Shown: positions 8,462-50,720 of the stretch, piece after piece
How positions within the stretch are numbered: position 1 is the stretch's first letter
Layout of the letters: the number at the start of each line of letters is the position of its first letter
Virus record (IMG/VR): IMGVR_UViG_3300031957_002446
Span: 1-53,249 of that record
Reading direction: 5' to 3' (one strand)
DNA from: a virus
Length of the DNA stretch: 53,249 nucleotides
Translations under genes and position numbers: made by a program
The notes under the pieces: generated by a model
The model's database searches: none
What the model saw: the letters and a program-made list of their open reading frames with translations, nothing else
Told to the model about the DNA's origin: nothing

Positions 8462-9880
8462 TCACATGAGGTTCTTGACGGATACGCGACGATAGTAGCG
8501 GTTTGTAGCAGCCTTGATAGCACCGAATGCAGCGGTGTCACCTTCAGCGAAGGGGTTCGCGACCATGCCGTAGCGGGTCTTGAAGCCGATCTTGGGTTGG
8601 AAGGTGTTCTCGCCAACGGCACGAACCATCTGTAGAGGAACGTAGGGGCAATAGAACAGACCAGCATCATAAGGTGAGGAACCCTTATAACCAACAACGT
8701 AATACTGCAGAGCAGCGTCGTTAGCAGCGAAGGGATCAATGTAAACGCGATACTTACCGTTGATGGTTCCAGCAAAGGTGTTGCCGGTGTCGTCAACGTT
8801 AAGGTTAGCGTTGAGGGCAGGGGTGTAATCAAGTACACCAGCCATGGTTAGAGCAGAAGCAACATCAGCGGAAGTTAGGATGATGTTACCCTTTCCACGA
8901 CGAGTTCTTTGTGCGATCTGGTTGGCATCGCGCTCGATTTGGAAGAGTAGACCCTTGAACTTCTCAACAGACCAACGACCGTTGGAGTCGATGTCAAGGT
9001 CAAACTGACCTTGGGTTGCAACGTTCTGTTGAGCACCTTGCTCAGCAGACTTGTAGATGGTACGGATAACTTCGCGGTTGATCTCAGCAAGAATCTCAGT
9101 GGAGAGAATGTTTGCTAGTTCAGCCTCGGCGTTTAGACCGTGGATTGCCTTGAGGTCTTGAGCAAGCTCGAGGCTGTACTCTGCCTTGAGGGCGCGTGAC
9201 TTAGCGGTCACGGTGACTTTCTCGATGGAGAAAGCCATTTTGTTGAACTCGTTACCGGATTCGCCTAGAGTCTCAGACTCGGTAACAGGCATACCCTGAC
9301 CTACGCTGTAGGTGGAGGGTGCTGCGTTAGGATCTAGAACGCCGGGGTTGGAACCACGCTGTAGAGTAGTACCGAAACCAACGGAACCGTCGGAGTCAGA
9401 ACCACCAGTGTAGTCGCCTTGGGTTGCGTCGTAGCCTTCGCGCTGAGCGGAGAATGCAGAATCGGGCTCATTGAATAGAGCTTCGGTTCCAGACATGTTC
9501 TCGTAGCGAGAACGCATTGCAAAGATGAGTCCAGTAGGACCGTTCATGGGCTGCACACCAGCTAGGTCATAAGCGACCAAGTTGGGCATGGAGCGACGGA
9601 TGAGGCTGATTAGTACGGGGTCAAAACCACCAGTAGGAGTGCCGCTATCAGTACCTGAAGTACCGCGATAGAGACCACCGCCACCGGAAGAGAATGACTG
9701 GGTGGGTGCCTCAGTAAGGTCTACGCCTTGCTCGAAAGCACGCTGTTCGTTTAGAAAACGCTCTTGGTTTTCTAAAAGTTGGGCAGTTACCACACGACGG
9801 TGAGAATCTTTGATTGCATCTGCACCATCATAATCTAGAAGGGGAGCCCACTTCTCTAGAAGGCCTGGATTGTTATACAT
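8462..9880 (-). CDS. 23: Major capsid protein gp23
   Basis: Forms the hexamers of the head shell. The 472-residue protein has the cyanophage gp23 order: MYNNPGLLEKWAPLLDYDG start, a Gly/Ser-rich linker near 65-80, RRSMPNLVAYDLAGVQPM, GPTGLIFAMRSRY and a YGMVANPF ending. LTE57-A58 fits the gp21 consensus (I/L)xE|(A/G/S), predicting removal of the first 57 residues; T4 gp23 is cut after residue 65. Local base composition is visibly more GC-rich than the neighbours, as expected for a very highly expressed gene. No good Shine-Dalgarno is visible. It shares the late transcript of gp22 and ends at a strong terminator. Confidence 0.98.
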   Translation of the reverse strand: MYNNPGLLEKWAPLLDYDGADAIKDSHRRVVTAQLLENQERFLNEQRAFEQGVDLTEAPTQSFSSGGGGLYRGTSGTDSGTPTGGFDPVLISLIRRSMPNLVAYDLAGVQPMNGPTGLIFAMRSRYENMSGTEALFNEPDSAFSAQREGYDATQGDYTGGSDSDGSVGFGTTLQRGSNPGVLDPNAAPSTYSVGQGMPVTESETLGESGNEFNKMAFSIEKVTVTAKSRALKAEYSLELAQDLKAIHGLNAEAELANILSTEILAEINREVIRTIYKSAEQGAQQNVATQGQFDLDIDSNGRWSVEKFKGLLFQIERDANQIAQRTRRGKGNIILTSADVASALTMAGVLDYTPALNANLNVDDTGNTFAGTINGKYRVYIDPFAANDAALQYYVVGYKGSSPYDAGLFYCPYVPLQMVRAVGENTFQPKIGFKTRYGMVANPFAEGDTAAFGAIKAATNRYYRRVSVKNLM

Positions 9881-9924: not shown

Positions 9925-11019
9925 TCAACGAGCTTGTCCCATGAACTTTATGTAATCTGCCATTCTGCCAGTTACATCTAGTCCAGCATTAAAACCCTCG
10001 GAAAGAGTTTCGGGGGACTCAGTAGTCTTTTCACTTGGGAAATATGACTCTCTAAGAGTCGCTAACTTTTCACGGTAAGATACTTCACCCTCAAACTCAA
10101 CACCTTCCGCTAGGGAAGCGAGTTTCTCCTTCTGGGTATCAGCAAGACCTTCAGAAACCTGCTTGAGGATTACCTCAGCGGTGGATTCTCCAAGTCTGCG
10201 ATTCAGTTGGATATTTTTCTCGATTTGCTCGTTGAGCTTGGTCTCCATGTCATCAAGTTTTTCTACCATATTCTCGACCACATCATATTTATCGTCAGGG
10301 ATGGATACATAATGATCTTCAAAAAGACTTCTCATTCCTTGTAGGAATGATTCGGTCATCTCAGTCTTCAGACCGTGTTCGATCTGAAGTGCATTTTCTT
10401 CTAACCATTCTTGAGAAACGTACTCAAGATAGGCATCTACTCTTTCGGTAAGTTCAGTTCTAAGACCAGCCATCTCTTCAGCAAGAACTTCTGCTGCTTG
10501 CTCTTCGATTACCTTCTTAGCTTCTTGTACCTTGGCAGTGACTGCAGCTTCAAATACAGTCTTTGCTTTTTCTTGGAACTCTTCGGAGAGTTCTTCTCCA
10601 GCAAATAGAGCAGCAACGTCTTCATCGACGTTAACTTCTACGGTCTCTTCTTCCTGTTCTGCTACAACTTCAGTCTCATCGACTTCGGTTTCTTCAGCAT
10701 ACTTGGGAGCTTTGGGCATGGCGTCACCACCGCCACGGGAAACACTGGTTCCTCCAGTGGTTGCATATGCGGGGGCTTTAGACATACCTTCTGCGGATTT
10801 TGAACCTCTAGTTACGACATCGGATACCTTGCTTAGGCCAGGTTCCTTAAGTTTAGCGGAATCATCATCAGGACGATAGTTTTCGGGGGTAGGACCGCCA
10901 AGATCCTCGATCTGGCCGTGACCAGGAACGTAGGAATTCTTAGCAGAGCTATCCATACCCTCACCAGACTTCGCACCAGATGACACGACGTTTTCCATTT
11001 CTTGTAATTTGGCGGACAT
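9925..11019 (-). CDS. 22: Prohead core scaffold gp22
   Basis: Main scaffold around which gp23 assembles, later degraded by gp21. The 364-residue protein (269 in T4) is very acidic, helical and rich in Glu/Lys/Ala; residues 130-320 are probably coiled coil. Sites fitting the gp21 consensus include SLAE|G, TLSE|G and LRE|S, expected for a protein reduced to peptides. The N-terminal 115 residues are low in complexity and contain two versions of a VV-x-x-G-x-KS-x-EGM motif. GGAGAG precedes the ATG, and a late promoter lies about 45 bases upstream. Confidence 0.92.
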   Translation of the reverse strand: MSAKLQEMENVVSSGAKSGEGMDSSAKNSYVPGHGQIEDLGGPTPENYRPDDDSAKLKEPGLSKVSDVVTRGSKSAEGMSKAPAYATTGGTSVSRGGGDAMPKAPKYAEETEVDETEVVAEQEEETVEVNVDEDVAALFAGEELSEEFQEKAKTVFEAAVTAKVQEAKKVIEEQAAEVLAEEMAGLRTELTERVDAYLEYVSQEWLEENALQIEHGLKTEMTESFLQGMRSLFEDHYVSIPDDKYDVVENMVEKLDDMETKLNEQIEKNIQLNRRLGESTAEVILKQVSEGLADTQKEKLASLAEGVEFEGEVSYREKLATLRESYFPSEKTTESPETLSEGFNAGLDVTGRMADYIKFMGQAR

Positions 11020-11073: not shown

Positions 11074-11724
11074 TTATAGATTTGATAAGAAGTTTTGGAA
11101 GATGTTTAGTTTATTTTCTTCCAATTTACGTTGATCAACCATCGTGTTGATCTCTTTGTATGTTTTTGCTGCGAGTCTTTCGCGGAGAATTCCTCCTTCC
11201 CACACCCACTCTTTACCCTCCATGATGCCATCAACGAAAGCATCGGGCGCAGAAGGATCTGCTACGATATCAGCTGCAGTTGCTAAAGCAAAGTCATCAT
11301 TGACCATGCTATAACCTTCTTTGGTTGGAGTTAGCGTTCCAACTCCGCGAGAAGAAACACCAAGTTTCACACCATCATTAATTAGAGCTTCAGCGATCTT
11401 GCCCATTGGGGTGGAAAGAATCTTTGCCTTACCAATGAAGTTATTACCTTCTCTTACAAGAGATGTAATTTTGTGTGAGGCTCTATCAAGGTTGATGGAT
11501 GGTCCCTCGGGGTGGCCAAGTTCTCCTAGAGCACGACCTTTAGAAATGAAGTTTTCGTGATAACGCTTAACTTCTCTCTCAAGAATGTTACAGTCGTACA
11601 TTCTCTTATTTCTATTGGCGATATTTCCTTGGAGAAATACACCTTCGATATACAGACTTTTTTTACCGTTGCGTTGCTCAACGATAACTTCAACCTGTTC
11701 GATTTCTTCTCTGATTAGTTTCAT
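11074..11724 (-). CDS. 21: Prohead maturation protease gp21
   Basis: Serine protease that cleaves head proteins during maturation. The 216-residue protein (212 in T4) contains GRALGELGHPEG with the catalytic histidine at 71 and GVSSRGVG with the nucleophilic serine at 124 or 125, as in the herpes-type phage protease family. It lies between the 88-residue core-region protein and scaffold gp22, the standard T4 order. Its targets should include gp22, gp23 and probably the 106-residue protein at 19948-20268. Confidence 0.96.
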   Translation of the reverse strand: MKLIREEIEQVEVIVEQRNGKKSLYIEGVFLQGNIANRNKRMYDCNILEREVKRYHENFISKGRALGELGHPEGPSINLDRASHKITSLVREGNNFIGKAKILSTPMGKIAEALINDGVKLGVSSRGVGTLTPTKEGYSMVNDDFALATAADIVADPSAPDAFVDGIMEGKEWVWEGGILRERLAAKTYKEINTMVDQRKLEENKLNIFQNFLSNL

Positions 11725-16768: not shown

Positions 16769-17014
16769 CTACCAATCAGGATAAACATCTTTAATTCTAG
16801 GGACTGGATTATATCGTATGTCTAATTTTCTATATTCAGTCACTCTTTTTATGGTACATTCTTTACACTCATATGAGTATGATGACGGGAAACCTCTCCT
16901 ATCCTTTCTTGTCAAATAAAATCCATCAATAAGATCTTTAGATTTTTCACAAACTCTACATTTCCTTTCTTGAAATAATAAATGCTCTAAAGATACTTGA
17001 TCATCGAAATCCAT
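16769..17014 (-). CDS. Zinc-binding protein, possible HNH-type relic, 81 aa
   Basis: Two cysteine pairs, CRVCEKSKDL and ECKECTIKR, flank a FYLTRKDRRGFPSSYSYE segment, a layout like the zinc-ribbon N-terminus of phage HNH endonucleases. The His-Asn-His catalytic part is missing, so it is either a stand-alone zinc protein or the remnant of a homing endonuclease. The ATG overlaps the gp17 stop as TAATG and the stop lies just before the gp18 promoter, so it would be co-transcribed with terminase. Function not established. Confidence 0.6.
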   Translation of the reverse strand: MDFDDQVSLEHLLFQERKCRVCEKSKDLIDGFYLTRKDRRGFPSSYSYECKECTIKRVTEYRKLDIRYNPVPRIKDVYPDW

Positions 17015-18660
17015 TACTTATAGTCCCACATGTAAGACATGTCGCCATATTCATCACTATACCATCTATCCCCATCTTTATCCACTTCTCCTATGTCATC
17101 CAATCCATCCAAAACAAAACCAAATGGAGCCATGTCCTGTTCAATCTGATTTTTTTGTTCTTCATAGATTCTCTTACGAACATCGTTGTCCGTCATTTCT
17201 TTAAAATAGTCCTGTGCCACGAGCCATGAGAAAATGACTAAACACATAGCGAGGTCATCATTACACCCCTCTTCTGCCTCAAATGACTGTCTCTTCTGCA
17301 CAAATGTGGTTAACTCTGATATAATGTCATAGTCATTAGTGACAAGTTTATCATCTTCCATCAAAGTCTTTAGGTTTGAGCATCCAAGTTTCTTGACGGC
17401 AGATGTCATCCTTACACCTAATTGAGACTTTTTGCCAGAGAATCCAGAACCAACGACTTGTCCAGCCCTACCTCTCATAGCACACATGAGTAAGTTTTCA
17501 TATTCAAGATCAAAGTATAAGATAGAGGACACCTGATCTCCAATATCATTCACTTCTACTAGAACCCATGCTTCATTATATCCATTTGCTACTTCCTGAA
17601 TTATACTAGGAAATAGCATAGGTTTAATTTCATTATTTCTATATTTTGCTACAGCTCTATATGGAAATGTTGTAATATCAAAGACGATAAATGCTGAGTA
17701 GTCGTGTTCTATTCCTCTCGCAACGTCAACCGTTATCAGGTAGTTGTGATCTGGTATCGGATTCTCATAAACATCCAATCCTTTATTTCTCTTGATTGGA
17801 TCTTCATATACTAATGTCTTTAGCTTACTGACACTAATAAGAGTATCAACAGATCCTAGGAATTCGCATTCAAACTCAACCTTGAACTGCTGTTCTGAAG
17901 TGTTCTTGATTGTTTGTTCTTTCCACTTTTTATTTCTTCCCGGTACTTCCGACCAATGAACTTCTGTAGGAACGTAGTCGTTTCTTCCTCTCTGTGCATC
18001 ATGCCAATATCGATAGAAATGGTTCATGCCATGAGGCGTTGAAACCATAATTACCTTTGTGTTTTTACCAGACGAGATAGTAGGATAAACAGAGGCAAAG
18101 AACGCATCAGCAATGTGATTCGGAATGAATGCGAACTCGTCGAGAAAGACGATATTATAGGAGCCGCCACGGACAGCAGATGCAGACGTAGATGCGGCGA
18201 TAATCTTAGATCCATTCTCTAGTTCTAACGATTGTTTGTTCCATACTATAATACCCTGCTGCATCCACTTGGGAAGGTTTTCATAAGCAAGTTGTAATCT
18301 TCCGAGAAGATCCTTTGCGGTAGAAGCCTTGTTGGCAAGGATGGCTATATTTACGTTGTCATTGAAAATCGCATAGTGTAAAAGATAAGACACCACGGTT
18401 GTAGACTTTCCAGTCTGTCGTGGCATCTTACAGATGTTGAATCTATGTTTATGGAAGTTTCTTACAAGTTTTTCTTGGAACTTGTACATTTTAAATGGTA
18501 CAAGACCCTCATCCACGTTTACGATTTGGATGTGATTCTTTGCAAAGTAAACAGGATCTTTTTTACATTTAACAAACTCTTCAATCTGTTCCCGTGTAAA
18601 TTCAATTGGTGTGTAAGCCTTTTTTAAATTAGGATTACCCAAATAGATATTGTCAGACAT
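17014..18660 (-). CDS. 17: Terminase large subunit gp17
   Basis: Packaging ATPase and nuclease. The 548-residue protein (610 in T4) shows Walker A PRQTGKST at 80-87, Walker B VFLDEFAF at 171-178, a coupling VSTPHG near 207-211, and a RuvC-like nuclease with TVDVARG (D312), VEVNDIG near 368 and NDDLA at 466-470. AAAGGTAA precedes the ATG. It follows a 425-residue virion protein by 6 bases. All catalytic residues I can place are present. Confidence 0.97.
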   Translation of the reverse strand: MSDNIYLGNPNLKKAYTPIEFTREQIEEFVKCKKDPVYFAKNHIQIVNVDEGLVPFKMYKFQEKLVRNFHKHRFNICKMPRQTGKSTTVVSYLLHYAIFNDNVNIAILANKASTAKDLLGRLQLAYENLPKWMQQGIIVWNKQSLELENGSKIIAASTSASAVRGGSYNIVFLDEFAFIPNHIADAFFASVYPTISSGKNTKVIMVSTPHGMNHFYRYWHDAQRGRNDYVPTEVHWSEVPGRNKKWKEQTIKNTSEQQFKVEFECEFLGSVDTLISVSKLKTLVYEDPIKRNKGLDVYENPIPDHNYLITVDVARGIEHDYSAFIVFDITTFPYRAVAKYRNNEIKPMLFPSIIQEVANGYNEAWVLVEVNDIGDQVSSILYFDLEYENLLMCAMRGRAGQVVGSGFSGKKSQLGVRMTSAVKKLGCSNLKTLMEDDKLVTNDYDIISELTTFVQKRQSFEAEEGCNDDLAMCLVIFSWLVAQDYFKEMTDNDVRKRIYEEQKNQIEQDMAPFGFVLDGLDDIGEVDKDGDRWYSDEYGDMSYMWDYK

Positions 18661-18666
18661 AAAAAA

Positions 18667-19944
18667 TTACCTTTGTTCAATCCAGTTTAATACTGCGAGT
18701 GCTGCTTTGTTAGTGTTGGGAGAAGCACAAGCAAGAGTGTAGATATCACTCACAGTTCCCAATGAACTTCTACCAATCTGTAGTGCTGCCTTATCATCAA
18801 CTTCTACAAGAGAAGAACCACCAGAAATCGTAAATCCACTCAGGACAATATTTCCACCAGTTGTAGCGGTAGCACTTGTGTCGTATTGGATAAAGGAGTT
18901 TGGATCTGGATGATCTGTCCAACTTGCACCAGTTAATGTTGGGTTCTCAATCAATCTCCAATAGACATTAGTATTATCATTCGTTGCTGTTTGTAGAGAT
19001 CTTAACAAAGCAACAGCAGCCAATGAACCAGATTTTAATCTGAGACTTACGACTGGATAAAATGTATTTGCATCTGTCAGTGTAGTTCCAGTAATCGGAT
19101 TAGCAACACTTTCAAGAATACCAAGTTTCTCTGGTTCACCTTCCTGAATCAGAGAATTGGAACCCTGATACATGTAATGATTTCCTGCAACACCAGTTAG
19201 ATTTTCAATCTCAAGACGAATGGGTAAGAATGGAGTAGAACACCAAACAAAGTCATTAGTATTTGAGTTCTCAAATGTATGAGACGGAATTGTCTCATTT
19301 TGCATTAACCAGGCAAACTCTACAATACCAGCACCATACCATTCATAGTTGATGGAAATCATCTGCTGTTTTGTTGCATCAGCAGTTACACCAGTATATC
19401 CATTACCATCAAACTTTTCACCATTCCAATTGTCTCTAGTGACTCTGGTTTCTGTAACAATACCTGTTGTATTACTACGAATTACATAAGAATAAGTTCC
19501 ACCATCATCCTCAAAGTAAGCACCATTATTTTCATCAAACAATCCAAATCTTCTACGAATACCGACCTGTGGAGTATCAAGACGAATTGCAAACGCAAGA
19601 GTAGCAGATCTGCCAGGAATGTATCTCATTACATTCCTGGTTTGTCGAATTACTTTACTTCCAGCTGCAGAACCAACCTCCATTACTACATTACTGGAAT
19701 TTAGATTAAAAGTAGCAGTTGCACCGACTCCGACTACTTGCTCATCCCAGACATCAGTTTCCTTACCATATTGGAAAGTGTCGAAGAATACTGTCTGATA
19801 TGGAGCAACCTTTAATCTGTTATTGTTAGAAAATTGAGGTCTCCAATCCGTCTGGTTTCCCCAGTGATCAGCAATATTATATACCTCAAATAGAGATCTT
19901 TCCTGGTTTAGAAAGTCCTGTGTGTTCTTATTCCACTGAGCCAT
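18667..19944 (-). CDS. Putative virion structural protein, 425 aa
   Basis: Begins MAQWNKNTQDFLNQERSLFE. Residues 45-260 form a beta-rich domain (FFDTFQYGKETDVWDEQVVG, VIRQTRNVMRYIPGRSATLA, RRFGLFDENNGAYFE) that looks like a jelly-roll or concanavalin-like fold seen in cyanophage virion proteins; the C-terminal third is another beta domain with SLRLKSGSLAAVALLRSL. Homologues occupy the gp16-gp17 interval in other cyanophages. The role is unknown; head decoration or a neck part fits the context. Confidence 0.7.
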   Translation of the reverse strand: MAQWNKNTQDFLNQERSLFEVYNIADHWGNQTDWRPQFSNNNRLKVAPYQTVFFDTFQYGKETDVWDEQVVGVGATATFNLNSSNVVMEVGSAAGSKVIRQTRNVMRYIPGRSATLAFAIRLDTPQVGIRRRFGLFDENNGAYFEDDGGTYSYVIRSNTTGIVTETRVTRDNWNGEKFDGNGYTGVTADATKQQMISINYEWYGAGIVEFAWLMQNETIPSHTFENSNTNDFVWCSTPFLPIRLEIENLTGVAGNHYMYQGSNSLIQEGEPEKLGILESVANPITGTTLTDANTFYPVVSLRLKSGSLAAVALLRSLQTATNDNTNVYWRLIENPTLTGASWTDHPDPNSFIQYDTSATATTGGNIVLSGFTISGGSSLVEVDDKAALQIGRSSLGTVSDIYTLACASPNTNKAALAVLNWIEQR

Positions 19945-19947
19945 GAT

Positions 19948-20268
19948 TTAAATCCACTCTAGTTTTGAAGGATGATATCTCCTTGTATTTTTAATGTTGA
20001 AATTCTTTTCTTCTACTGGATAAATGTTTTGAACCATTGCTCCAGGATAATCTTTTTGTAGTTGTTCTCCAAGTTCTTGTTTGGTTGGAATACCATTCTT
20101 GGATACCATCTCAAGACGATAGATGCTACCGTTCCAGGTAACATCTGCAACATAATTCTCACCAACCTGAGTAGGTTCTGGCTCAGATTGACCAATGTAC
20201 ATGTTTCCATTGAAGTCACCTTGAATGGTGACTCCTTCTGATAGAAATTGTTTGAATGATTTAGACAT
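19948..20268 (-). CDS. Small protein with capsid-targeting-like N-terminus, 106 aa
   Basis: The N-terminus MSKSFKQFLSEG resembles the capsid-targeting sequence of T4 internal head proteins (M-K-x-Y-x-E-F-I-x-E-A), and FLSE|G fits the gp21 cleavage rule (I/L)xE|(A/G/S) at residue 11. The rest is a compact alpha/beta domain with PTKQELGEQLQKDYPGA, also found in the neighbouring 408-residue protein. It overlaps that gene as TAATG. I infer a protein packaged inside the head and trimmed on maturation; a DNA-ejected role is speculative. Confidence 0.65.
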   Translation of the reverse strand: MSKSFKQFLSEGVTIQGDFNGNMYIGQSEPEPTQVGENYVADVTWNGSIYRLEMVSKNGIPTKQELGEQLQKDYPGAMVQNIYPVEEKNFNIKNTRRYHPSKLEWI

Positions 20269-21494
20269 TAGTTACAGTTCCAACGACGGAGGGCTTTGTT
20301 GATATTTGAATCTGGGTCTCTTGCAGTTTTAGCAGATGTAAGTCGTTTCTTCATACCGCCCATTCTTGCACAGAATGATGCACGACGAGACTTTCTCTTT
20401 CCTTTTGGATTCTTCTCAGTTACAGCAGTCTTTAACTTTGAGCCGGGATTCTCACGGCGATATGCATTGACTGCTTTTTGACTTAGGCCATCGGTCTTGT
20501 CTTTGCGGTTAACTTTCTGCCAGTCTTCTCTAATCTTGGTCTCGAAAGATCCATCTCCATCTGGAATTTTTTCTCCATAATCACCGCTTGCTTTTTCTTT
20601 TTTATCACTAGGATCGATGTCTCCATCCACATCTGCATCAAGTCTATTGACAGCATCTCTAGACTTTTTCTTTAGATTTGATCCATCAATTCTGTGCTCT
20701 GTATTTTTGGGAGTTCCACGTCCTTCAAATTCTGCACCAACAAATTCAGTTGCTTCCTTCTTGATCGCGTCTGCAATCTCATGAGCCTTTTTAATAGTTC
20801 TCTTCTCTAGAGGTGGTTCGTCACCATACTTCTTTTTTGCAGATGCCATTCCAATGGCATATGGATTATTTGCCTCGGCAAATTCTTTCCAAGTTTGAGA
20901 ACCCTCAACTTGAATAAGTGGAGCTCCAGGTTCTCTATCTTTTTCTAGGAAATTTACTAAAACAGCACTTGGATAAACTTTTTGGAGTTGAGCATTTAAT
21001 TGCTCCCTTGTAGGTCTCTTGGCACTTGGGAAGAAAAATTGAAGAGATTTATACTGACCTCTGAATTGGAAAAACACCATGTAAGTTTTTCCATAGTTTT
21101 TTATCAATTCAAATTTTTCTTCTAATTCAAACTCTTCCTTTTTTGCTGGTTTAGTTTCAGATGCTTTTTTGTTGGTAAAAGATCTCTTTTTATTTTTCTT
21201 CGTCTCCTTCTCAACTTCTCTCATCTTGAGAGCTTGACTCACTCTACGTCTGAAAGAATCTCTGCCTAAAGGTGGTTTAGTTGCATCTAAAGCATGAGCC
21301 GTTGCTAGACCAACCCCTTCATCAACATCACCCATTGGTTTTACATAGTTATCGTCTTTCCCAGGCTTTGCTGCACTGCCACCCATGGGAATACGTTTAA
21401 TGGTAAACTTTTCCCAATTTTCAGGGCCATAACTGCATTCTTCTTTATATTCTTTCTTGCCACAGAGCTGACAGAAACGTCTTTCCATTTGCAT
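20268..21494 (-). CDS. DUF6321-containing multidomain protein, 408 aa
   Basis: Starts with a cysteine cluster (CQLC at 8-11, C20). A basic linker (95-120) leads to a domain at about 128-185 with PTREQLNAQLQKVYPSA, paralogous to the next protein. Residues 285-296 (DADVDGDIDPSD) look like a calcium-binding loop. Residues 337-407 carry the DUF6321 pattern: GLSQKAVNAYRRENPGSKL, then SFCARMGGMKKRLTS and LRRWNC. DUF6321 is found in many phages and large viruses without a known role. The strongly basic C-terminus suggests nucleic-acid binding. A GATAAATA late motif and a small hairpin lie just upstream. Confidence 0.75.
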   Translation of the reverse strand: MQMERRFCQLCGKKEYKEECSYGPENWEKFTIKRIPMGGSAAKPGKDDNYVKPMGDVDEGVGLATAHALDATKPPLGRDSFRRRVSQALKMREVEKETKKNKKRSFTNKKASETKPAKKEEFELEEKFELIKNYGKTYMVFFQFRGQYKSLQFFFPSAKRPTREQLNAQLQKVYPSAVLVNFLEKDREPGAPLIQVEGSQTWKEFAEANNPYAIGMASAKKKYGDEPPLEKRTIKKAHEIADAIKKEATEFVGAEFEGRGTPKNTEHRIDGSNLKKKSRDAVNRLDADVDGDIDPSDKKEKASGDYGEKIPDGDGSFETKIREDWQKVNRKDKTDGLSQKAVNAYRRENPGSKLKTAVTEKNPKGKRKSRRASFCARMGGMKKRLTSAKTARDPDSNINKALRRWNCN

Positions 21495-21515: not shown

Positions 21516-21923
21516 TTATTTATCTAAATTTTTTATGAACTTAGTTAAATCTGCAGTAGATCCTTTGAAAAAAACAGCATTGTTGGTAACTGATGTTGGT
21601 CCCTTCGCAGATTCTTCGTCTAAATCTTTGACCTTCTTCTGTAACTCCATCAGTTTATCCGCAGTGTCAGCAACACTTTTTAAAATCTGACCAGCGACTT
21701 CATACGCTCTAGGTGACGAGGATTCTTGAGCCAATTCCATGATTCCATCAAGACTCTCTTGACCCTTTTCAATAAGACTATAAAGTTGACCTCTTGTGTA
21801 CTCGTAGTCTTTTTTGATGTCATTTATATCAGACTTGACTATTTTCTTCTCATCCAAAACTTCTGGATCAATGATGGATTCAGTTTCCCCGTCAAATGAT
21901 GCATCTATACTATCAAACTTCAT
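21516..21923 (-). CDS. 16: Terminase small subunit gp16
   Basis: Regulates gp17 and recognises DNA for packaging. The 135-residue protein (164 in T4) contains KKDYEYTRGQLYSLIEKGQE, SSSPRAYEVAGQILKSVADT and ADKLMELQKKVKDL, the conserved helical core and coiled coil of gp16. N-terminal 30 residues are acidic. The ATG overlaps the gp15 stop as ATGA. It is separated from gp17 by three virion-type genes, an arrangement found in cyanophages but not T4. Confidence 0.93.
   Translation of the reverse strand: MKFDSIDASFDGETESIIDPEVLDEKKIVKSDINDIKKDYEYTRGQLYSLIEKGQESLDGIMELAQESSSPRAYEVAGQILKSVADTADKLMELQKKVKDLDEESAKGPTSVTNNAVFFKGSTADLTKFIKNLDK
21517..21524 (-). promoter_or_regulatory. Late-promoter motif GATAAATA before the DUF6321 gene
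   Basis: Minus-strand AGATAAATAAAAATAC within the last codons of gp16, about 23 bases upstream of the DUF6321 ATG. One mismatch from TATAAATA. Confidence 0.6.
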
Positions 21924-25521: not shown

Positions 25522-25725
25522 CTATTTATGTTTGTCCAATAGTTGTCTAACCAATGATTTTAACTCACTGACTTCATTTTTTAGATTTTTCAATTCCTCC
25601 CTTTCCCTTCTTTTCTTTTCCCTTGCCTGCATATATCGTTCATATTCATTACTATTCAAATTAATTACAGCTTCAGTAATTGGATCCCGATAAAAATCAG
25701 GATCCCCATCAACCTTTTTCATCAT
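25522..25725 (-). CDS. Small coiled-coil protein, 67 aa
   Basis: Begins MMKKVDGDPDFYRDPITEAV, then a run of Arg/Glu/Lys (REKKRREREELKNLKNEV) and a leucine heptad to the C-terminus, predicting a coiled coil from about residue 30. A cyanophage family with the same DPxTxAxIN start is familiar to me but uncharacterised. ATGA overlap with the 2509-residue gene suggests coupled expression; it could act in assembly of that protein. Confidence 0.7.
   Translation of the reverse strand: MMKKVDGDPDFYRDPITEAVINLNSNEYERYMQAREKKRREREELKNLKNEVSELKSLVRQLLDKHK
25523..25530 (-). promoter_or_regulatory. Late-promoter motif CATAAATA before the Ig-like gene
   Basis: Overlaps the last codons and TAG stop of the coiled-coil gene; about 22 bases from the octamer to the next ATG. 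Expected to drive the small virion genes and gp13-gp16. Confidence 0.6.
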
Positions 25726-28700
25726 GCTAGAGCAATAGTTCTAATATCATTTAGGCGAGGAGCAAGAGCCTCATTCGTTCCGTTAAACACGATCTTGATC
25801 TGATATGAATCAAATGGTTGTAGATTGTCTACACTAAATTGATACTCTCTAAACTCATCTTGGAGACTAGAGGGGACAATTCTATCTGGCAATCCACTAG
25901 ATTTGGTGGAATCAATTACTTGATCTCCAAACCCATCTGCATCGGTATCTCTCAAGTTATTATATCCTGGGAATGGTACAAACTGAGGTTCGACGAATTG
26001 TGCATCTGAAGAGAATACTCTATAGAAACATCTAATTTCAGCAGTTTGATCAACATATGCACTTGTCAAAACTCTTATGGAAGAGGCAGGATTTTTAAGA
26101 TCAATCTTCTGGCTCACATAGAATGATGTATGAGGATCTCCCTCAATTTCTCCAGTTCTGGGATCATTAATATAATCATTTATTGGGCGATTTAATCTGG
26201 TTCTATCAAGATCGACAGAAATTTGATCGGAGAATACCACTGGAGAGAATCTTCCACCACTATCATCACCAATCATATCAACCTCAATAGTCAATGATTT
26301 GCTTCTAGGAAGAGCTGTAATAGTGGGTTGATTACTTTCATTGACCTTAGATGCAACCATTCTGGGGGAAGGATAGATGATCGTAGTGTTCAATGAAGTT
26401 GGTTGGAATGCGGTATCTTGGAATGATGGCTCAACTCCTCCAGCACTTGTTCCTGTAATTGTTCTAATTCTTCCACCTACAGAAGTCTCTCCAGGAGTAA
26501 TAATATCGAGATTTGTTGTAATTTGATCAAACTGTATGTTTCTGGAAATCCAAACACTATTTCCTCCTGCAATAATTTCATCATTAAAGTTCAGTTGATT
26601 GGGACCTGTGGGTCTATCGCCTCTAGAAATTTCTAGATAATAACTATCCATCTTCTTGGCACTTTGCAACACGTTGCTGGATGGCATGTTATGTTGCTTA
26701 TTAATCTTTGCCAAAGATACATTTGCAAACTCATATGGATAAACAAGATCTCCATTGGAGTGTCTTGCCGCCGTAGTGTTTTCAGCACCTCTGGTAGAAA
26801 TTCCCAATTGTCCAGCACCAATGCTGTCATAATACATGACTTCATTGTTAACGATTACATATCCTTGAGATGTGGAAATTCCTTGGAAAGTTGCAAAAGT
26901 TGTTGTGTCTGCAACGGAGATAGTATTATCCGTGTTCAAGACAGCTGCTGTCAAAGAAGTTGGGGATGTATTTGGTTTTACATCCTTAATTTCCAAAACA
27001 TTATTAATTGAATGCATTGCATGTCTAGGATGCAGAACTTCAATTACATTTCCAGAATATAATTGATCATATACAGAAGAACTAGTAATCAGTGTAGATC
27101 CAAGAGAAATTGGATTATTAGAGTCATTATAATAAATTAATTCCTCATCAGTCACAAATTCTTGACCATTGACATTTGTAGTGTAAAGGGTATCGTAACC
27201 AGTTATAGCTCCAACAGAAATAACTGCATCAGTGCCCTTGAATACATCTGAAGTGGTGATTCCTAAGGATTCGCCAACAATAAATCCAGTTCCAGAACTT
27301 GCAATAGATACCTGACTGATTTCTCCAGCGGAAGAAACAGTTACAACTCCAGTAGCACCGCTTCCATTTCCACCTACAGTGTAGAAGTTAACTCCACTGT
27401 AGGTTCCGGTAGAATATCCAGTACCAGTAATACTAATGTTTAGTGCTGCAATTGGACCTCCAACATTTTCAATAAATCCTGTCACTGTATTTCCTTGGCC
27501 AACTTTTCTACCAAAAGATAGAATGTTTTGCATATCTGCAGTTTCTGCAGTTGTAATACCTACAGATAGTTTTCTTGGCAGAGACTTGATTGGATTTGTT
27601 GGTAATAAAGGCAGAATACCACTATCAAAAGACAAGTCTGGATTCTGTAATGTCAATACACCACTTTCAGCAACAAATTGTGCTCTGTTAATAATAAATT
27701 TCATATCTTCAAAAGAAGATGCTTCCCAAATAGATCCGTTTTGAGATTTGAACAGGGCACCTGCACCATATTGTCTTGTGTATAGTGCATTATCAGAACC
27801 ACTTCCACCAGCAACAGCTCTTTCGCCAAGTCTTGCAACCCAAGCAGTGTACTTGTCGCTAGTTGGTGCTAGTAGTACAAGTGCATATTCAGTTCTTGGT
27901 TCTACAAAAATTGGAGCAGGGAAAGTTACTCTAGTTGCAACAGACGCATCGGTAGAAGTATTAACATCAATAGGAGAAAGTATGACTTGGGCTTCTTCGG
28001 CAACAAGTGTTGTTGTTGGAACACCCAATTCCATTGTTCTAAGTTCTACAGTAAGAGGTGCTCGTAGATCCTTAGTTGCCATATAAATGTCAACTGAGGT
28101 AATAAATCCTCCCTGTGAATCTGTCAGGAATGATTGTGCTAGAGGATCTCTTCTTCTTCTTCTCCTTCTCCTACGTCTTACGATTACTCTTTCTCTCCTA
28201 ACTTCTCTTACTACTGGTCTTACTACCGTCGTCCTATTGATGTTAGTAATGTTTTGTGTTACGTTACGAGTAACTCTTGTGATGTTTTGAGTAATGTTGT
28301 TGATCGTTCTATTGTCAACGTTAACAATAGGTTGAAGTTGAGTGATTCTCCTCTCAATAAAGTTATTATTAATAATTCTAGGTGCAGGTATTCTAGCTGC
28401 CCTAAATTCAACGTTGTTCGTAATGGTCGTAGTTGTATCGTTTCTAGTAGTTGTTAGTGCAGTTGCGGTTAGATTTAAAGTTACTCTTCTAGTTGTTCCT
28501 CTAGCAGTATAGTTCACTTCAGCATCACTAATGTCTAAAGATCCTGGTAGAGCTTCAGCGTTAGATGAACTACTTGTGAGTTTAAATGTTCTTGTTCCTG
28601 TTCTAAACAAGAATCCCTGATTTACAGTATTTGGTGATCTAAACCAAAGACATCCTGCCAAACTTCCAAAACTATCAGTCACTAAACGGACATCTTTTAC

Positions 28701-31700
28701 CGTAGCCTGAGCATTACTGGTTCTTCCAGTAAGTTTCATTCCAACGAAAACTCTACCATTGAAAGATCCTTGTGCAGATACTGCAAGAGCTTCAGTGTCA
28801 ATGTTCAATAATGTGGAGGAAGCATTGTAACTATCAGTATCGCCAAAATCAATGTTTCTATCATATGGATTTGCATCCAAGAATGTATCTGGGAACAAGA
28901 AGTTTCCAGATTTATGATTGGGAACACAAATTCTAAAATTGATATATCTAGTCCCTCTTGTTCTTGGATCTCTAACAGAAGCTTCACCATCTACAATCTC
29001 ACCTGGTCTAAAAGATCCAGAAACATTTTCAATTTCCAAATATTTTGGAATAACATCAATTCTGTTAGAATCATCCATGAAAGGATAATATCTAGTGAAA
29101 GGTTTTAATCCCTCTGCTTTAAATTCAACATTTCTGGATCTAATAAATCTATCCTGAGTTTCATCAATATCAATACTACCACTTATATTAGTGATAGCTC
29201 TATCTGTGGTTGTTACCGTGCTAGTAGATCTTGTTGGTTGATTAGTGACTAATCTACTAGCCTCTCCACCACCAACTCCTTGGAAAGATCGACCCTGAGT
29301 GACATTTGTATTTGTGAGAGTTCTTCCGGTATTAATAGTGCGGAATCTTTCAATTACTCTATTATTCGCATCAGTTAAGTTTGTTGTCCATTGATCAGAT
29401 GGTGGATTGAGTCTAATTGATCCAATCCATTCAATAATGTTAAATGGGTTAACATTTTCCGTTCTAGTTGCAAATGGTTGCTGTAAATATTCAACCTCAT
29501 CATAATTGAGGGTAATAGCTGTTCCCGTCTTTCTTAGATTTGCATCTAATAGAGCATAGTCTTCTCCAAAATCAAAGTCCGCAGCAATTTTTTGCTCAAA
29601 TGGAACTATTTGTGGACTGAGAGTATTTCTATCTTGATTACAAATAACTGTGTTTTCTCCAGGATCAACTATACAAGTGCTTGCGGAGTTGAGAAGATTT
29701 GAATTTTTAAAATCATCTGCAAAAAATCCACTCTTAAATCTTGTCAAACCGTCAGCATCTTGAACTTGAAGATTCCTTGTTTCACTTTCAAGTAGTGATA
29801 ATGATGTCGTTTCCTCTAGATTTTGAATCCTATCTTCAAGAGAACCAATGTCTCTCATAGTATATCTCTTATTATCTACTTGAATGATTCTGATATCATT
29901 CACGTCGTAGACATAAGCTGGATATTCAATGACTGCCAAAGTCATTGAATCTTTAACAATTTGAGGTACTTGGACATTTGTATTGGAGGGAGTGCCTTCA
30001 ACCAGTTGGAACTGTCCCTCAGAAGTTAGAATTAATCTATCTGTTCTTGGTAAGAAATAATCATATGAGACAATTGCAGATTCATTTGGTTTAGGAATCA
30101 GTGTAGTTGAACCTCCTGCAGCAGAAAAGTCTCTACTATCATAGTCAAATGGTGATGAAGTAGTTCCACTAAAAGGAGCAACTCTAGGCCTAAAATCTAG
30201 ACAATCACTAGCCCTGACAAATTTGCCCAAAATTTGGATTTCTGGTATATCTAACTTAAATCTTTCCGCATCATAAGAATCTACAGTAAATACATCTCCA
30301 TCATCAGATGATTCGACTGTATAGTGGTTGAAAATTACCAATAGTTGTTTTGTCGGTATTCCAACTCCAGGAGATCTAACGATTCTAGAATAATCATATA
30401 TGTCTGGTTTTTGTCCTTTATCTAATCTGTAATCATCTGTTCTATCAACAAAGACACCAGATCTAATTGATTGAAGAATGCCAAATATTCCAGACTCTTG
30501 GAATTGCAATTCTTCACCAATATCAAAACGATCATCATTTAGGTAAACAACTTCTATTTCTGTAGCAGAAAGTCTAGTGACAACTTGAGCCAAAGCTTTA
30601 TTATTTGGTCCAGAAATATATTCTCCCAGAATAGATGCAGTATTTAATTCAAGACCAGCTTCAAATGTTAACTTATCAAGAATTGGTGGATTTGAATCAA
30701 TAGATTCATATACTGCTATTACTCTAGAAACGTCTGCGTAGTTAAGAGAAATTTGATCATCTTGGACTCTTAGTCCATAAAAATCATTATAGTCAAGTCC
30801 ATTATTTACATTTGTACTAACACCAGCAGACCTCTGTGTGGATTTATTTACTGTTACTTTGGTGCTTCTAGTATGTACCTTTAATTTTGATCTCAGATCT
30901 TTTTTGTTTACAGTTACTGTAACATTAATATTAGTTTCATTTGGCTTTGCTCCAGTAATTGTGACAACTGTGCCATCAGAATTGATAGAGACTTGATCTG
31001 CAGTTAGATCCTCAATGGTGCCATCTGAATATGCTATTGTGTATCTTTGTTGATTAAATTCTTCAAAGAAAGAACTTGTAATTCCCGTAGCAGAGGAATT
31101 GAATGCAATCTGACCAAATGCATCAGAAGTTCTTCCAGTAACCTGATTCAGAATTGGAAGATTTGAAGAATTTAAAGCAATATTTGCTACATTTTGATTA
31201 ACTAAAGGAGCAATTAAAGATCCACCATCTTCTCCAAATTGGAACTCAGAAACTCCAATCCTAAAGTTAACAGCAACACTTCCAGATGCACTAACAGGAA
31301 GAAGTCCGGTAGCAACACCAATTACATTAGGAACAGCTTCAACTTCAATACTATTTCCATCATCTGCTACACTAACAACTCTGTTGTAAACTCTATCCGC
31401 GTATTGATCAATAACATTATTATATGCGACAATAGAATTTGTAGCAATACCAGTAAATTTTTCTCCTCCAGAAGTTATGGTAGAAATTCCACCAGAACCC
31501 GTACTCACATTGACTTGGTGGATAGCATTAAATTCAGGAGCTAGTCTTTCCCTTAATACCGAATCCGCAACAAAATCAGATTGAAGACCTAGAGATGATG
31601 CGTCTTGATATACTGAGTGAACATCATCTAAGGTATATACTGTAATTTGTTTGATCGATCTTGGAACTTCATAGTTTCCGTTGATTGAGAATCTCTCGCC

Positions 31701-33251
31701 AGTTATAAAAGTTCCAGAAGTTTGATGAACTTCTACAATATTCAATCCCGAAATAGCCTCAGTTATGTATCCGCTAGCACCACTGCTTAGACCTTTAATA
31801 TAACTTCCTTTTGGAATGGTGGTAGATTCACTAATTGTAAGTTTGGTATATGTTTGAATATCAAATAACCTCAAATCCCAAGAAGTTGTTTGGTCCGAAT
31901 ATGGAGCATCAGTAAGAGTGAATGAAAATACTCTGGCTTCTCCGATCTTATCTCCGGTTCCAGATGTTGTACTGTTACTTCTTTGATTGAATAATTCAAC
32001 CACATAAGTTGAATCACGATTCAATCCAATTGCTGGAACGCCAAAAACATTATTAACTCTTAATAACGAGCCAAAAGATAGAGGAACTCTTACAGCTTCT
32101 ACACTTGCAGTTGTTCTTGCCTTGTTGGCATCAATAATAGTATATTTTGATATGTCAATGTCATATCCTTTCACATATGCTTTACCAGGACCGATTGTAA
32201 GGGCAGCCAGATCGTCTGTAGGAGTGTTTCCACTTGAGGTAGTCTGATCTGATCCATAAAGTCCCTGATTTCCTTGTTCGTCGTTTAGAGACTCGCTGAA
32301 CGTAAGTGAGAATGGAGTTACAGTATAGTCTCCAGACTCTTCAAAAGTTCTTTTTGCTAGATAATCTTTGAAAATATTATATTGTGGTTTTGGTTCTGCG
32401 ATATCAGGAATTCCTTCCTCAGATCGCATGATCTCTACGAAATTTACATCGTCCAGATCATCTAAAGATTTTTTGTCAAGAATTAAATCAAACTTGAATC
32501 TATCTGCACCAGGAGCTGAAAAGTTTGTAAATCCCTTTGCGTTATCAAAGAGATCATTGTCTTCATTAGCATTAACAGTGCTTTCAGAAATTGTTAAACC
32601 AATTCTATAAGATGGTTCATTTGAATATTGATCTAGAATGATAGTTTGCTTTAAAACCCTCGCAAAAAATCCTCTAACAAAATAGACACCATCATCAACA
32701 GAGACTGCTGAACCAATTGCAGTTGCCTCAAAGTTAATGCATTGAGCAAAAGATGATCCAGGAACAATTGTAGTGTTTCCATAAACTACAGTATCTTCAG
32801 CTAGAAGAAGTTCTCCATCAACAAAAGAATCAAAAGTTCCATCAGAACCAGAATTTAAGTATTTTACATATAACGTTAAGTTTCCAGTATCAGATTCCTC
32901 AGAAGTAATTACATTAACTACGTTTGCGGTAATTTGACTAGTTTGACCTCTAATTGAAGTTCCAATAAAATTATCGATATATGTCTCTACATCAATGCCA
33001 AGAAAAGTAGTATTAATTTTTACGGCATAATATTGAGTATCAATTGAAACCCCGCCAGGTATGACTATAGATCCATCTTTAAAAAAGTGATCGCCAAAAG
33101 ATTCAATCTGATTTTGGAAAACAGATTGTAGATTGTTTAGTTCCCTCGCCTGGACTGGAAATCCGGGCTTAAACAGAACCCTGTAAAAATTATCATCCTC
33201 GCTATAATCGTCGTAATAGGGAGTAATGTTTAGGTTTGTTCTTTGTGCCAT
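25722..33251 (-). CDS. DUF4815 giant baseplate/fibre protein, 2509 aa
   Basis: The N-terminus (TPYYDDYSEDDNFYRVLFKP, then GFPVQARELNNLQSVFQNQI and FFKDGSIVIPGG) is the DUF4815 domain of T4-like cyanophage structural proteins. The long middle is beta-rich. Residues about 1630-1690 are Asn/Ile/Thr/Val repeats (NRTINNITQNITRV) resembling a trimeric shaft, ending in ten consecutive arginines (1692-1701), then DPLAQSFLTDSQGGFITSVD, a conserved block. A GxGY repeat pair lies near 1935-2000. It occupies the slot of T4 gp9-gp12, suggesting a wedge-linked fibre or adhesin. No Shine-Dalgarno is visible 4 bases after gp8. Confidence 0.88.
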   Translation of the reverse strand: MAQRTNLNITPYYDDYSEDDNFYRVLFKPGFPVQARELNNLQSVFQNQIESFGDHFFKDGSIVIPGGVSIDTQYYAVKINTTFLGIDVETYIDNFIGTSIRGQTSQITANVVNVITSEESDTGNLTLYVKYLNSGSDGTFDSFVDGELLLAEDTVVYGNTTIVPGSSFAQCINFEATAIGSAVSVDDGVYFVRGFFARVLKQTIILDQYSNEPSYRIGLTISESTVNANEDNDLFDNAKGFTNFSAPGADRFKFDLILDKKSLDDLDDVNFVEIMRSEEGIPDIAEPKPQYNIFKDYLAKRTFEESGDYTVTPFSLTFSESLNDEQGNQGLYGSDQTTSSGNTPTDDLAALTIGPGKAYVKGYDIDISKYTIIDANKARTTASVEAVRVPLSFGSLLRVNNVFGVPAIGLNRDSTYVVELFNQRSNSTTSGTGDKIGEARVFSFTLTDAPYSDQTTSWDLRLFDIQTYTKLTISESTTIPKGSYIKGLSSGASGYITEAISGLNIVEVHQTSGTFITGERFSINGNYEVPRSIKQITVYTLDDVHSVYQDASSLGLQSDFVADSVLRERLAPEFNAIHQVNVSTGSGGISTITSGGEKFTGIATNSIVAYNNVIDQYADRVYNRVVSVADDGNSIEVEAVPNVIGVATGLLPVSASGSVAVNFRIGVSEFQFGEDGGSLIAPLVNQNVANIALNSSNLPILNQVTGRTSDAFGQIAFNSSATGITSSFFEEFNQQRYTIAYSDGTIEDLTADQVSINSDGTVVTITGAKPNETNINVTVTVNKKDLRSKLKVHTRSTKVTVNKSTQRSAGVSTNVNNGLDYNDFYGLRVQDDQISLNYADVSRVIAVYESIDSNPPILDKLTFEAGLELNTASILGEYISGPNNKALAQVVTRLSATEIEVVYLNDDRFDIGEELQFQESGIFGILQSIRSGVFVDRTDDYRLDKGQKPDIYDYSRIVRSPGVGIPTKQLLVIFNHYTVESSDDGDVFTVDSYDAERFKLDIPEIQILGKFVRASDCLDFRPRVAPFSGTTSSPFDYDSRDFSAAGGSTTLIPKPNESAIVSYDYFLPRTDRLILTSEGQFQLVEGTPSNTNVQVPQIVKDSMTLAVIEYPAYVYDVNDIRIIQVDNKRYTMRDIGSLEDRIQNLEETTSLSLLESETRNLQVQDADGLTRFKSGFFADDFKNSNLLNSASTCIVDPGENTVICNQDRNTLSPQIVPFEQKIAADFDFGEDYALLDANLRKTGTAITLNYDEVEYLQQPFATRTENVNPFNIIEWIGSIRLNPPSDQWTTNLTDANNRVIERFRTINTGRTLTNTNVTQGRSFQGVGGGEASRLVTNQPTRSTSTVTTTDRAITNISGSIDIDETQDRFIRSRNVEFKAEGLKPFTRYYPFMDDSNRIDVIPKYLEIENVSGSFRPGEIVDGEASVRDPRTRGTRYINFRICVPNHKSGNFLFPDTFLDANPYDRNIDFGDTDSYNASSTLLNIDTEALAVSAQGSFNGRVFVGMKLTGRTSNAQATVKDVRLVTDSFGSLAGCLWFRSPNTVNQGFLFRTGTRTFKLTSSSSNAEALPGSLDISDAEVNYTARGTTRRVTLNLTATALTTTRNDTTTTITNNVEFRAARIPAPRIINNNFIERRITQLQPIVNVDNRTINNITQNITRVTRNVTQNITNINRTTVVRPVVREVRRERVIVRRRRRRRRRRDPLAQSFLTDSQGGFITSVDIYMATKDLRAPLTVELRTMELGVPTTTLVAEEAQVILSPIDVNTSTDASVATRVTFPAPIFVEPRTEYALVLLAPTSDKYTAWVARLGERAVAGGSGSDNALYTRQYGAGALFKSQNGSIWEASSFEDMKFIINRAQFVAESGVLTLQNPDLSFDSGILPLLPTNPIKSLPRKLSVGITTAETADMQNILSFGRKVGQGNTVTGFIENVGGPIAALNISITGTGYSTGTYSGVNFYTVGGNGSGATGVVTVSSAGEISQVSIASSGTGFIVGESLGITTSDVFKGTDAVISVGAITGYDTLYTTNVNGQEFVTDEELIYYNDSNNPISLGSTLITSSSVYDQLYSGNVIEVLHPRHAMHSINNVLEIKDVKPNTSPTSLTAAVLNTDNTISVADTTTFATFQGISTSQGYVIVNNEVMYYDSIGAGQLGISTRGAENTTAARHSNGDLVYPYEFANVSLAKINKQHNMPSSNVLQSAKKMDSYYLEISRGDRPTGPNQLNFNDEIIAGGNSVWISRNIQFDQITTNLDIITPGETSVGGRIRTITGTSAGGVEPSFQDTAFQPTSLNTTIIYPSPRMVASKVNESNQPTITALPRSKSLTIEVDMIGDDSGGRFSPVVFSDQISVDLDRTRLNRPINDYINDPRTGEIEGDPHTSFYVSQKIDLKNPASSIRVLTSAYVDQTAEIRCFYRVFSSDAQFVEPQFVPFPGYNNLRDTDADGFGDQVIDSTKSSGLPDRIVPSSLQDEFREYQFSVDNLQPFDSYQIKIVFNGTNEALAPRLNDIRTIALA
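28149..28178 (-). repeat. Ten-arginine tract (AGA/AGG-rich) in the DUF4815 protein
   Basis: Ten Arg codons in a row (nine AGA/AGG, one CGT), giving a purine run with two AGGAGA-like Shine-Dalgarno matches inside the coding sequence. It precedes the conserved DPLAQSF block. Confidence 0.95.
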
Positions 33252-50712: not shown

Positions 50713-50720
50713 TATTTATA
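50713..50720 (-). promoter_or_regulatory. Perfect late promoter TATAAATA before gp25
   Basis: Exact T4 late consensus on the minus strand (CCCTATAAATACATAG), between a terminator and gp25. The only exact match found at a gene start here. Confidence 0.88.

Follow-up and report, generated by a model that had tools for sequence, protein, structure and literature searches.

A probable T4-type capsid-targeting sequence on a 106-residue cyanophage protein and on unrelated proteins of environmental phages

The 106-residue protein and its gene neighbourhood

The window analyzed here is the whole 53,249-nucleotide stretch of the viral record IMGVR_UViG_3300031957_002446. On its minus strand lies an ORF for a protein of 106 residues, whose ATG start uses the last base of the stop codon of the upstream gene (a TAATG overlap). 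We confirmed that this ORF is a real gene. The protein matches the phrog_1742 profile over residues 3-101 with an E-value of 5.1e-40, and a tblastn search with it matched 140 phage records, every one of them a cyanophage, whether of Synechococcus, of Prochlorococcus, or unspecified. In codon-aligned comparisons, the pN/pS values of the window gene were 0.14/0.37 against Sf-FS3, 0.12/0.28 against S-SCSM1, 0.25/0.47 against DSL-LC02, and 0.17/0.64 against locus L077. Because pN is lower than pS for all four relatives, the frame is under purifying selection. The phrog_1742 family is annotated with unknown function; a Pfam search of the protein gave no match, and a profile search of PDB sequences gave chance-level matches only (RPA, R.MvaI).

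In the window and in most relatives examined, the phrog_1742 gene is located between the genes for the small (gp16) and large (gp17) terminase subunits. The typical order in the relatives is a DUF6321-type or structural gene, then the phrog_1742 gene, and then a gene for the phrog_1645 structural protein. A phrog_1645 match is present downstream at 54 loci, and at 41 of these it follows after an implied gap of 2-3 bp. The window also encodes the gp21 protease, the gp22 scaffold, and a gp23 major capsid protein that, by sequence comparison, has a conserved predicted processing site, VDLTE/APT (here and below, a slash marks a predicted cut), resembling SFLAE/APT in S-SCSM1. The initial annotation placed the gene in the packaging and head region, on a late unit; the late unit agrees with the gene order. 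The T4-type late promoter core TATAAATA has a single match in the window, at 50713-50720 (-), a short distance upstream of gp25, the first gene of the long late run on the minus strand; this is weak evidence, since 4.4 matches are expected by chance. Two giant late ORFs are observed in the baseplate region, at 34854-48377 (-) with 4507 aa and at 25722-33251 (-) with 2509 aa; the position of the latter corresponds to that of a VrlC-annotated virion protein in S-SCSM1.

Table 1. Features of the window considered in this study.
Feature	Position	Strand	Basis or remark
CDS of the 106-aa protein, phrog_1742	19948..20268	-	ATG start; N-terminus MSKSFKQFLSEG
CTS-type tag MSKSFKQFLSE, residues 1-11	20236..20268	-	Predicted gp21 cut after E11
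Predicted mature protein, 95 aa	19951..20235	-	Predicted from the tag; modelled
Folded beta-beta-alpha-beta core, approximately residues 36-90	19999..20163	-	AlphaFold2
Downstream gene, phrog_1645 virion structural protein	18667..19944	-	E 3e-183; 3-bp gap to the 106-aa CDS
gp17, terminase large subunit	17014..18660	-	Gene order; similar to proteins annotated as terminase large subunit
Upstream 408-aa DUF6321 protein	20268..21494	-	Pfam DUF6321, E 3.9e-14, residues 331-405
TWKEFAEA, a tag-like peptide inside the 408-aa protein	20871..20894	-	Sequence
gp16, terminase small subunit	21516..21923	-	Gene order; so annotated in S-T4 (under the match) and DSL-LC02
gp21, prohead protease, presumed processing enzyme	11074..11724	-	Resembles SSCSM1_40, annotated as prohead protease
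gp22, scaffold	9925-11019		Within the window
gp23, major capsid protein	8462..9880	-	Conserved N-terminal site VDLTE/APT, residue 57

The N-terminal tag in the family and in complete phage genomes

In phage T4, ten residues of the capsid-targeting sequence (CTS) are enough for targeting; residues 4 and 7 are most important for targeting and residues 8 and 10 for processing, and gp21 cleaves after L/I-x-E (PMC9026906). The reading of MSKSFKQFLSEG as a near-perfect T4-type CTS is well supported. Among 50 distinct homologous genes, T4-CTS position 4 is Phe in 49 and Tyr in one, while Phe at position 7 and Glu at position 10 are found in all 50; correspondingly, F8 and E11 in the window numbering are invariant in alignment A1. 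The window aromatics stand at F5 and F8 rather than F4 and F7 because of one extra residue, S2. The codons for the tag Phe and Glu are mixed among the homologous genes (TTT and TTC; GAA and GAG). Invariance of the residues despite mixed codons means that the tag is constrained at the residue level, and not as DNA alone. No other ORF in the window starts with a comparable motif in a genuine gene context. An N-terminal enrichment calculated on loci that had been picked for belonging to this family is biased by that selection and was left out of account.

At the predicted processing site, position 8 is Leu, Ile, or Met in all 50 homologous genes (the window has LSE), and Met at P3, observed in 14 of them, falls outside the strict L/I rule of T4. 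Following the tag glutamate, Ser is found in 49 of the 50 genes and Thr in one; Gly, as in the window, is rare. A family member in locus L232 (3134-3490, minus strand) has two successive sites, MKNFKEFINE/SKAETLSE/SVNIAGDF, where the LSE/SVNI boundary is kept behind a new tag.

The motif is specific in complete genomes. Twelve complete phage genomes were scanned for MKx[FY]xxF[LIVMF]xE, with the reversed pattern as a control, and this control had no match in any of them. T4 has exactly three matches, ipII, ipIII, and 61.1 (54 aa). In S-SM1, Syn9, P-SSM2, and S-SCSM1, the pattern finds the cytidylyltransferase/NMNAT (T4-GC190 where numbered), encoded at 148256, 149735, 158143, and 88819-90048, respectively. 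The strict pattern has no match in T7, P-SSP7, S-PM2, and HTVC008M. The third T4 match, gene 61.1 (NC_000866, 18966-19130, minus strand; L559), encodes a hypothetical protein that begins with MKTFKEFIKEDM, a near-perfect CTS; this gene adjoins the primase gene and has no known head role here.

S-SM1 (PMC3037559) and S-SCSM1 (PMC9602691) virions both yielded the cytidylyltransferase in mass spectrometry. No other observation ties the tag to the virion in cyanophages as strongly as this one, and a CTS-type tag offers an explanation for the repeated detection of NMNAT there. The NMNAT proteins (SSCSM1_91, SSM1_190, Syn9 gp184, PSSM2_194) start with the same tag as the 106-residue protein (MKSFLQFLKEA, MKKFSAFLSEA, and similar), although they are unrelated enzymes. 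The initial annotation had proposed a T4 CTS form of the N-terminus, and this stands, given the conserved Phe, Phe, and Glu and the recovery of ipII and ipIII by the motif. The search of cyanophage N-termini that it recommended indeed yields a tagged protein, the NMNAT. The gp21-type site LSE/G that it had described can be retained as a predicted site for the L/I/M-x-E part, with Gly after the Glu being a minority form in the family. Of its overall reading, an internal head protein packaged or injected with the DNA, the CTS component is well supported by the recovery of the T4 internal proteins and the virion cytidylyltransferase, and the packaging, cleavage, and injection of this particular protein are inferred, so that the reading is supported in part.

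These observations bear on two other explanations of the peptide. An ordinary cytoplasmic phage protein could have a CTS-like N-terminus by chance, which would agree with Ser at P1' in most relatives and with the absence of the protein from one virion proteome, that of S-SCSM1. Conservation of the tag throughout the family despite silent variation, the specificity of the motif, its controls, and its modular spread disfavor this explanation, which we consider very improbable. Alternatively, the peptide could dock the uncleaved protein to the neck, tail, or terminase, making it a packaging accessory acting with gp16, gp17, and the phrog_1645 protein. The location between gp16 and gp17 directly upstream of the phrog_1645 gene, with the short gap in most loci, fits such a role. 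However, the same peptide starts unrelated proteins whose genes lie in other parts of the genome, the virion NMNAT among them, and Glu at position 10 is retained, though in T4 it matters for processing and not for targeting. Docking is thus an improbable function of the tag.

Virion data for an ortholog come from S-SCSM1, whose virion labels derive from mass spectrometry (PMC9602691). The ortholog SSCSM1_30 is labelled "hypothetical protein" and is not among the virion proteins detected there, while both its neighbors, SSCSM1_29 and SSCSM1_31, are labelled "virion protein". As SSCSM1_30 has several usable tryptic peptides, it would be expected to be visible if it were as abundant as the T4 internal proteins. 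Its absence may reflect low copy number, expulsion, or no packaging. The phrog_1742 gene is also present in S-CREM1, for which 14 virion proteins were detected but are not marked in the record. One explanation for the S-SCSM1 data would be that the tag does bring the protein to the prohead core, where it helps to assemble the head as a minor constituent of the core or scaffold (comparable to gp67 and partly to IPIII), and that the protein is degraded or expelled during maturation and never delivered. Retention of the gene beside structural and terminase genes in cyanophages is consistent with this role. On the other hand, the domain in the mature part is conserved and modelled with confidence, SSCSM1_30 has no candidate cleavage motif besides the one after the tag, and many other tagged proteins are enzymes or lysozymes rather than scaffold components. 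On balance, a purely assembly role seems unlikely, and we prefer delivery of the protein as head cargo.

The mature domain and its copies in DUF6321 proteins

The mature part is predicted to consist of a flexible linker and a beta-beta-alpha-beta domain. AlphaFold2 models built from two alignments agree, with pLDDT of approximately 85-95 for most blocks of the core and 46-51 for the tag and linker. The T7 Gp2 protein bound to Escherichia coli RNA polymerase (RNAP) and the RNAP epsilon subunit YkzG are the top PDB fold matches of both models, Gp2 being matched with probability 0.94-0.98, VIA Z 5.0 and 4.5, and rmsd 2.3 over 50 residues. The E-values of these fold matches are 0.1-0.2, no more than one Z unit separates them from ribosomal eL20-type and other beta-beta-alpha-beta domains, and hhalign against the single T7 Gp2 sequence gave a probability of 0.1 percent, that is, no profile signal. 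The Gp2-like fold of the model is therefore a weak lead only, and for the defence or transcription target suggested in the initial annotation this match to Gp2 and RNAP epsilon is the sole hint. One could propose that the mature domain is an RNAP-binding inhibitor with a Gp2/epsilon-like fold, injected against host transcription at the start of infection. The top positions of Gp2-RNAP and YkzG in the lists of both models speak for this proposal, and the high E-values, the close scores of eL20-type domains, and the lack of a profile signal against Gp2 speak against it; we regard it as rather doubtful.

A paralogue of the core domain is embedded in the adjacent 408-aa protein from approximately residue 126 (profile search, E 9.1e-6). 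The positional equivalent of this protein in S-SCSM1, SSCSM1_29, is a virion protein and also contains a copy (E 2.2e-11). The window 408-aa protein has LEE/K at the boundary of the embedded domain and the peptide TWKEFAEA further on. The front boundary of 55 distinct embedded copies has Glu in all 55 and a hydrophobic P3 residue in 53; the full form [LIVM]xE/[AGS] is observed in 44, compared with 1.4 expected, where, the copies being related, 44 of 55 counts conservation and not independent events. The boundary site could instead reflect the domain fold. Whole tag-like peptides immediately precede the DUF6321 domain in some proteins, as VKSFGNFMTE/GAAW (L063, L069) and SFGDFMSE/GEAW (L427). 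Such internal tags suggest fusion of tagged single-domain proteins. No mention of DUF6321 was found in the open-access papers searched.

Breadth and proposed function of the tag

The IMG/VR collection was scanned with MKxFx[QE]F[LIVMF]xE followed by Ala, Ser, or Gly. Each of the E/A, E/S, and E/G forms has at least 120 matches, whereas a residue-permuted control pattern with the same letters has none. Among the matches listed, all closed ORFs have at least 50 aa, and the tag marks the gene start: the preceding in-frame stop lies a median of 6-8 codons away, and more than 40 codons away in only 3 of 365 matches. After removal of the tag, 353 proteins form at least 98 unrelated clusters. Only M1, K2, F4, F7, and E10 are invariant in 88 representatives, these positions being fixed by the search pattern. 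The residue following the tag glutamate varies, being Ala or Ser among NMNAT relatives and Ala, Gly, or Ser in another cluster. A looser scan with only MKTFK[QE]F[LIVMF] fixed added 97 proteins, of which 65 have Glu at position 10. Thus, without being imposed by the search, the processing half of the T4 tag accompanies the targeting half. A T4-like marker similar to that of the window is found in 144 of the 360 fetched stretches, most of which are shorter than 15 kb. On the basis of these sequences, the tag behaves as a modular N-terminal label on many unrelated proteins.

In Pfam, single tagged members were assigned to cytidylyltransferase, glucosaminidase (L116), phage lysozyme (L370), RlpA-like transglycosylase (L099), zeta-toxin-like kinase (L442), GNAT acetyltransferase (L103, L348), methyltransferase (L236), and SAM lyase, and ART-PolyVal, ADPrib_exo_Tox, and DUF3990 have one member each in the 88-protein set. 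Many other proteins of this set of cargo candidates, which spans loci L091-L546, have no Pfam match. ADP-ribosyltransferases were also suspected by eye in L125, L412, L438, and L103, for which Pfam gave no confirmation. In the open-access papers searched, we found none that prints the tag sequences; "capsid targeting sequence" and "cyanophage" occur together in one of them, a T4 review.

Similar peptides are also observed at C-termini, where 20 were seen compared with 12 expected and there is no general enrichment. Cyanophage gp21 proteases (L041, L058, L175, L192, L226, L245, L325) end with a tag-like peptide such as LFNEFLNSL, and that of the window with IFQNFLSNL; T4 gp21 has no such peptide. 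From its sequence, it may be a core-binding C-terminal version of the tag signal. Another example is SSCSM1_93 (L085, 42626-42835), a small S-SCSM1 virion protein that starts with MPAVSKAQQRFMGMV and has the C-terminus RTFKEFLEYIE. Its longer relatives (the group of L140, L191, and L528) end with TFKEFMGDI or TFKQFMGDI, and L528 carries the tag at the N-terminus instead.

IPI, IPII, and IPIII of T4 are directed by the CTS, processed by gp21, and injected as inhibitors of GmrSD restriction enzymes. The 106-residue protein resembles them in its small size, in the short tag with aromatics at the two targeting positions and a hydrophobic residue and Glu at the processing positions, and in its origin from a T4-like phage with gp21, gp22, and gp23. 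It differs in several respects: no shared family match was found in the mature part, P1' is mostly Ser in phrog_1742, the gene is located between gp16 and gp17, the cargo role is predicted from sequence, and nothing points to GmrSD targets in its cyanobacterial host. The best reading is that the gene encodes T4-type CTS-tagged head cargo.

We consider it probable, with about two chances in three, that the protein is such cargo, addressed by the CTS, cleaved by gp21, and injected. During late infection, approximately the first ten residues (F-x-x-F-[L/I/M]-x-E) would bind the prohead scaffold core in the manner of the T4 internal-protein CTS, so that the protein is taken into the head as it assembles. 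Cleavage by the prohead protease gp21 would then follow after LSE to yield the 95-residue protein with its flexible linker and compact beta-beta-alpha-beta domain. This protein would remain with the packaged DNA and enter the next host cell alongside it. The neighboring DUF6321 virion protein would bring the core domain along as well, as one of its modules, which gp21 could free at the front-edge [LIVM]-x-E. In the host, by analogy with T4 Ip1-3, the most likely action would be binding and inhibition of a host protein, RNA polymerase being weakly indicated. Besides the S-SCSM1 data, three observations count against head cargo: Ser at P1' falls outside the Glu-Ala/Gly form cited in the initial annotation, though this position also varies among NMNAT relatives and in another cluster; 61.1 is tagged; and S-PM2 and HTVC008M have no strict match.

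A broader and more tentative proposal, to which we give slightly less than even chances, is that the tag is a general head-address code of environmental T4-like phages, readable from sequence and marking a large unrecognized injected arsenal. This arsenal may include nucleotidyltransferases, ADP-ribosyltransferases, acetyltransferases, SAM lyase, peptidoglycan enzymes, kinase-like proteins, and unknown domains. The multi-domain DUF6321 relatives would then be polyproteins of the same modules, cut by gp21 in the head, and the 106-residue protein a tagged single-domain module. The DUF6321 virion proteins (phrog_727 and others, including SSCSM1_29 and the window 408-aa protein) share the core domain with it, but they are long, have several domains, and usually lack an N-terminal tag, with gp21-like boundary sites instead. 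Polyvalent or head-packaged effectors, described by Iyer and colleagues, are multi-domain virion-embedded proteins delivered with DNA (PMC9503650). The difference here is that a T4-type CTS serves as the address of single domains, and that the multi-domain relatives have [LIVM]xE between domains.

The proteins carried into cells with ocean-phage DNA are a largely unknown set. The tag gives a hypothesis for the conserved phrog_1742 family and for the DUF6321 virion proteins. Larger than the single gene is the breadth of the tag, with at least 98 unrelated clusters in environmental viral contigs. Should the tag function in cyanophages the way it does in T4, injected proteins could be predicted from genomes alone by a simple sequence rule, one backed by the controls run on T4 itself and on a large viral collection.
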